From: Synechococcaceae cyanobacterium
GTDB lineage: Bacteria; Cyanobacteriota; Cyanobacteriia; PCC-6307; Cyanobiaceae
Assembly (NCBI GenBank): GCA_947461705.1
Contig: CANHMF010000002.1
Span: forward strand, 1-48,420
Direction of reading: 5' to 3'
Length of the DNA stretch: 48,420 nt
The position numbers were made by a program, and so were the translations under genes. Below, in pieces: positions 24,364 to 25,667 of this stretch. The stretch's first letter is position 1. The number at the start of each line of letters is the position of its first letter. The notes beneath the pieces are model-generated. The model had not been told where the DNA came from. It saw only the letters and a list, made by a program, of their open reading frames with translations, and ran no database searches.

Positions 24364-24425
24364 GCCAGTGGGCTGGGCCTAGGGATGAGGAGGATTGGCC
24401 TGCACCCTGCAGGACCGGAAGCCAA

Positions 24426-24499
24426 CGAGCATGGAGGGACTCGAACCCCCGACATTCAGAACCGGAATCTGACGCTCTATCCAACTGAGCTACATGCCC
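24426..24499 (-). tRNA. tRNA-Arg (CCG)
   Basis: Revcomp GGGCATGTAGCTCAGTTGGATAGAGCGTCAGATTCCGGTTCTGAATGTCGGGGGTTCGAGTCCCTCCATGCTCG; cloverleaf with anticodon CCG. Confidence 0.95.
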
Positions 24500-24557
24500 G
24501 TGCAGGGATCGGATCCCTTCACGGGCCTTACCTTACCCGTCAGACGGCCCCAGACCC

Positions 24558-25667
24558 ATTCGGCTGCATCGCCTGGAGCTGCTGCACTTCCGCAACTACG
24601 GCCGGCTCAGCCTGAGTCTCGAAGCGCCACGGCTGTTGGTGATCGGCAGCAATGGCGAGGGCAAGTCGAACTTGCTGGAGGCCGTGGAGTTGCTGGGAAG
24701 CCTGCGCTCCCATCGCTGCAGCGCTGATCGGGATCTGATCCAGCAGGGGGAGCGTCAGGCCCTGATCGCCGCCGACTGTGCGGATGGCGATCGGCTGGAG
24801 CTGGAGTTGCGTCGCCAGGGCGGTCGCCAGGCCCGCCGCAACGGCAAGCTGCTGGAGCGGCAGCACGAGTTGATCGGTCCGCTGCGCTGTGTGGGCTTCA
24901 GCGCCCTGGATCTCGAGCTGGTGCGGGGTGAGCCGGCCCTGCGGCGCCAGTGGCTGGATCGGGTGGTGCTGCAGCTGGAGCCCGTGTACGCCGAACTGCT
25001 CAGCCGTTATGGCCGCTTGCTGCGCCAGCGGGCCCAGCTGCTGCGGCGGGGCCTGGGCCAGGGGCATCTGGGGGATCTGCTGGAGGTCTTTGATCAGCAG
25101 ATGGCCCTGGTGGGCACCCGTCTGCATCGCCGCCGCTTGCGGGCCCTCACGCGGCTGCAGCCCCTGGCGGCGGCCTGGCAGCAACGGCTCAGTGGTGGCC
25201 GTGAGCAGCTGCACCTGCGCTATCGGCCTGGCAGCCTGCTGGAGGGGGAGGAGGCCGAAGGCCCCTGGCGTGAGGCGCTGCTGCACCAGCTGCGGGCTCA
25301 GCGCGACACGGAGCTGCGCCTGGGCCAGTGCACCGTGGGGCCCCACCGCGATGAAATTGCCCTGGAGATCGGCGAACAGCCGGCCCGGCGCTATGGCTCG
25401 GCAGGGCAGCAGCGCACCCTGGTACTGGCGCTCAAACTGGCGGAACTGAACCTGGTGCATCAGCTCTGGGGGGAACCGCCGCTGCTGCTGCTCGACGATG
25501 TGCTGGCCGAGTTGGACCCCACCCGCCAGCAGCTGTTGCTGGAAGCCGTGGGGGAGGGCCACCAATGCCTCGTGAGCGCCACCCACCTGGGGGCCTTCAG
25601 CGGTGGCTGGCACGAATGTTCCCAGGTGCTCACCGTGACAGCCGGTTCCATCAGCTCCACGAGCTAG
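24558..25667 (+). CDS. recF: DNA replication and repair protein RecF
   Basis: [47 protein letters not shown]...[22 protein letters not shown]. The conserved N-terminal strand begins at an ATT codon; 369 aa from there. Confidence 0.9.

Follow-up and report, generated by a model that had tools for sequence, protein, structure and literature searches.

Where does the translation of recF begin in this Synechococcaceae genome, and why does its reading frame lack a usual start codon? In the window (i.e., the whole analyzed stretch of 48,420 nucleotides), the recF frame runs uninterrupted through 24489-25664, between stop codons at 24486-24488 and 25665-25667. It contains no ATG, GTG, or TTG (here, the canonical starts) between the stop at 24486 and a TTG at 24636. 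The preliminary description had reported this absence and had proposed ATT 24558 as the start of a RecF of normal length (i.e., 369 aa). Its coordinates were confirmed, and the protein read from ATT gave a full match to TIGR00611 (303.5 bits; cut-off, 172; profile positions 1 to 338 of 339). The features discussed below are as follows; "family" denotes the Synechococcus/Cyanobium family of small cyanobacteria.

24558..25667, + strand: recF coding sequence, 369 aa plus stop (TIGR00611, 303 bits)
24558..24560, + strand: ATT assigned as the start codon of recF; aligns with the ATG/GTG/TTG start of recF outside the family
24636..24638, + strand: TTG, first canonical in-frame start (codon 27), rejected as the main start
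24645..24668, + strand: Walker A motif GSNGEGKS (in translation), at codon 30 in 111 of 111 family loci
24529..24534, + strand: TACCTT, a -10-like element located 23 bases 5' of the ATT (motif-based)
24541..24557, + strand: predicted short leader without a Shine-Dalgarno site, deduced from the -10-like element
24425..24500, - strand: tRNA-Arg (CCG), divergent neighbor (ARAGORN)

The translated protein has the features of a complete RecF. Position 1 of the NF010680 profile aligns to the residue encoded by ATT 24558, both Walker motifs (A and B) of RecF/SMC-type ATPases are present, and solved RecF structures match the protein (2o5v aligns from residue 4). The TTG at 24636, by comparison, lies only three codons ahead of the Walker A motif. 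When a canonical start was forced on each gene, the loss of coding signal was greatest in the window for recF (8.9; the next value, 5.4, was at the window edge).

We collected recF from 25 genomes of the genus, 201 of the family, and 116 of the class, together with a few named loci, and took the family count over 111 distinct recF loci. Across the family, the start position was occupied by ATT in 70 loci, ATC in 36, ATG in 4, and CTC in 1, and neither GTG nor TTG was found there in any of the 111. Thus, 106 of the 111 family loci carry ATT or ATC, versus none of the 41 loci from outside the family (40 from cyanobacteria and one from a Lachnospiraceae member), in all of which the aligned codon is canonical (ATG, 28; GTG, 12; TTG, 1). 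This pattern goes well beyond what chance would give. The locus with CTC (L069/L205) appears to carry a four-codon insertion, and it has an ATC four codons upstream, in the usual CCC-ATC context. At the genus level, the codon is ATT in 23 of 23 loci. ATT is also present in recF of Synechococcus sp. HJ21-Hayes (97% identity), Synechococcus sp. ATX 2A4, Synechococcus sp. 1G10, and an uncultured Cyanobium, and likewise in the low-GC members with small genomes (1.6 to 1.7 Mb; L146-L149). The comparison with sister genomes that the preliminary description had suggested therefore returns ATT or ATC at the codon aligned to M1, barring four scattered ATG tips, and the presence of these codons in >100 genomes rules out a sequencing error or an ATT unique to this strain. 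On this comparison, the Ile start of recF is broader than had been supposed and characterizes the family as a whole.

The codon also behaves differently from other Ile codons. In the high-GC family members, codon 1 of recF is ATT in 44 cases and ATC in 23, while internal Ile codons are ATT in 74 cases and ATC in 329, a contrast to be read without a formal test since the sequences are related. Codon 1 is thus ATT-rich where internal Ile codons are ATC-rich, and it is unlike an ordinary internal Ile codon. Its A and T were invariant among the 76 non-redundant loci compared. Taken together, the alignments indicate that recF of this family almost certainly begins at ATT or ATC, and conservation in >100 genomes makes this start assignment strong from comparison alone.

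Upstream of the codon, a motif of the form TANNNT[A/T] begins at position -29 or -28 in 100 of the 111 family loci, against a background of approximately 0.001 per position further upstream. A scan for a complete two-box sigma-70 promoter found none, and only the -10-like element is conserved. On the basis of this motif, the recF transcript is predicted to start approximately 17 bases before the Ile codon. Shine-Dalgarno-like 4-mers occur in just 5 of the 111 leaders. The gene and the divergent tRNA-Arg (CCG) share a 57-base intergenic region (24501-24557), and its conserved bases, including the -10-like element, may serve the divergent tRNA promoter as well.

A start further downstream (TTG 24636 or its equivalent), which would leave the Ile codon unused and shorten RecF by approximately 26 residues, is very unlikely. 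TTG or GTG at codons 26 to 28 is indeed the first canonical codon in 64 of the 111 family loci, but it is missing or located elsewhere in the remaining 47. The first downstream canonical codon is scattered from codon 3 to codon 67 across the family, and in 7 of the 111 loci it lies at or past the start of the Walker A motif. Moreover, codons 2 to 26 carry 1.12, 1.36, and 0.55 bits of information at codon positions 1, 2, and 3, respectively, versus 0.46, 0.77, and 0.59 bits in the upstream sequence. This phase pattern, which the upstream sequence does not have, points to a conserved translated protein from codon 1 onward. The same codons are conserved at the amino acid level and align with the N terminus of the solved RecF (2o5v). 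The TTG 24636 start, named in the preliminary description as one of the outcomes that would overturn the ATT assignment, is contradicted by this conservation; moreover, no downstream start is conserved across the family. A CTG at codon 3 was also considered as the start and rejected; the codon varies among CTG, CTT, CTC, TTA, and CTA.

Two further readings would remove the Ile codon from initiation, and we regard each as extremely improbable. One places the start at an upstream canonical codon, either within the tRNA gene on the opposite strand or in a different frame, with a subsequent frameshift into recF. Although some loci have an in-frame ATG or GTG approximately 20 or more codons upstream, the window has no in-frame upstream canonical codon, and an in-frame stop lies 1 to 7 codons 5' of the Ile codon in 54 of the 111 family loci (one group reads TGA-CCC-ATT). 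No ATG, GTG, or TTG in any frame occurs within 30 bases upstream of the Ile codon in 88 of the 111 loci, which argues against a frameshift from a nearby start too. These stops and leaders exclude upstream starts in many members, and the conserved -10-like element sits downstream of the candidate upstream start codons. The other reading holds that an RNA hairpin or some other nucleic acid signal, rather than initiation, preserves the bases near codon 1. It could draw on codon 2 (24561-24563), which is CGG in 88 of the 111 loci, even in certain low-GC members in which Arg is seldom encoded by CGG. No RNA fold accounts for this CGG, however: the region from -17 to +25 around the start gave no folding signal (mean z, +0.35 over 71 loci), and a hairpin or other signal would still leave recF without a start. 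In the predicted folds, the start codon is largely left unpaired. A CC-AUU-GG stem at the start, which appears possible by eye, was rejected given the lack of a folding signal over the 71 loci.

To trace the history of the Ile start, we built a quick tree from 129 RecF proteins, with residue 1 left out. The family forms one clade (support, 100), and the distribution of Ile and canonical starts needs five changes, most simply explained if the Ile start was gained once on the stem of the family and reverted to ATG at four single tips. ATT and ATC have interchanged several times inside the family. The family portion of the tree is approximately 21 substitutions per site long; the trait has thus persisted through much change.

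We propose, at a probability of roughly 0.8, that recF of this family is initiated by fMet-tRNA at AUU or AUC, with a short leader that lacks a Shine-Dalgarno site, and that this start arose once and was kept, likeliest through a RecF dose limited by IF3. The initiator fMet-tRNA would read AUU or AUC (AUU 24558 here), so that the protein would begin with Met. These codons differ from AUG in the third base only. As read from the tree above, the Ile codon replaced ATG, GTG, or TTG at the same position in a single event in the family ancestor. By analogy with known cases, IF3 would disfavor AUU and AUC and keep initiation at a low level, and the resulting low RecF output would avoid an excess dose, perhaps the selective reason for retaining the codon. 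IF3 destabilizes initiation complexes unless the codon is AUG, GUG, or UUG; AUU of Escherichia coli infC and GUC of Streptomyces sigR are the well-studied cases, and a canonical start in sigR leads to harmful overproduction (PMC5472188). In E. coli, where the normal level is approximately 50 molecules of RecF per cell, excess RecF is extremely toxic through its ATPase activity, and the replisome is destabilized (PMC10287930). The disfavor of IF3 and the toxicity of RecF together make a weak start codon plausible as a means of keeping RecF low. Counting against this proposal, four family members carry ATG, and a canonical start is evidently tolerated there; infC, moreover, starts canonically in the family, so that the known IF3 feedback is not seen.

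Alternatively, the Ile start may be real and have no regulatory role, AUU and AUC having proved adequate after a single chance change in the family ancestor, with little pressure back to ATG. The free exchange of ATT and ATC and the ATG at four tips would fit such a history. We nevertheless consider it unlikely, because ATG is one step away and yet only four single-tip reversions occurred over approximately 21 substitutions per site, and because GTG and TTG were never found at this position, although each lies two changes from ATT. A more far-reaching form of the IF3-limited reading is that the family fixed an IF3-sensitive Ile start that ties RecF supply to initiation fidelity or the IF3 level and, through these, to the growth state. 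We offer this only tentatively, as a rather unlikely possibility; if true, it would place translational control on post-replication repair.

Starts outside ATG, GTG, and TTG have been documented for very few bacterial genes, and the comparison suggests that recF joins this small class, notable in being fixed across a family. One of the closest precedents is E. coli infC, the autoregulated IF3 gene with AUU (ATC in Streptomyces), likewise a conserved gene with an Ile start disfavored by IF3 (PMC5472188). Unlike infC, however, recF does not encode IF3, and there is no obvious feedback. Nor does infC share the Ile start in this family: it was rejected as a further case, being canonical in 48 of 48 loci (ATG, 47; TTG, 1; L226-L244 and L314-L342). 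The textbook IF3 feedback is thus absent or built differently in the family. Streptomyces sigR (GTC; IF3 repressed) resembles recF as a non-IF3 gene with a non-canonical start conserved in relatives, and its overproduction is harmful (PMC5472188), as the E. coli toxicity implies for recF; its codon is GTC, however, not ATT or ATC, and its start was established by experiment, that of recF by comparison only. Among cyanobacteria, ATA and ATT starts have been reported in Nostoc sp. PCC 7120, there with proteogenomic peptide evidence (PMC8557916). The main text of that report does not include recF, and the recF genes that we sampled outside the family start with ATG, GTG, or TTG. We found no prior report of an AUU/ATT start of recF in the open-licence literature; one may exist elsewhere.

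A coding-onset screen covered 381 kb of a complete genome from the genus (G008; approximately 318 genes). It gives no total of such genes in that it overlooks those that happen to have an ATG upstream, recF of G008 among them, and further family-wide cases of an Ile start may therefore exist. Its one other convincing candidate was queA, in which the probable start is an ATC or CTG that overlaps the upstream stop. This arrangement (L250:15595-16896, i.e., G008:C1:110595-111896; L265-L268) was confined to four species of the genus that are closely related to each other. Their queA genes have no ATG, GTG, or TTG near the conserved N terminus, and a CTG or ATC overlaps the upstream stop (CTTCTGATC). 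Elsewhere in the genus, that place is mostly occupied by ATG, GTG, or TTG. An ftn2-like gene from the screen was rejected as non-canonical, since it has a TTG.

Gene finders limited to the three canonical starts are unable to call other start codons, and recF of these abundant cyanobacteria has probably been annotated as too short or too long. The Ile start of recF links to the toxicity that excess RecF is known to have at the replisome, and the gene may serve as a natural system for exploring why evolution retains a weak start codon.
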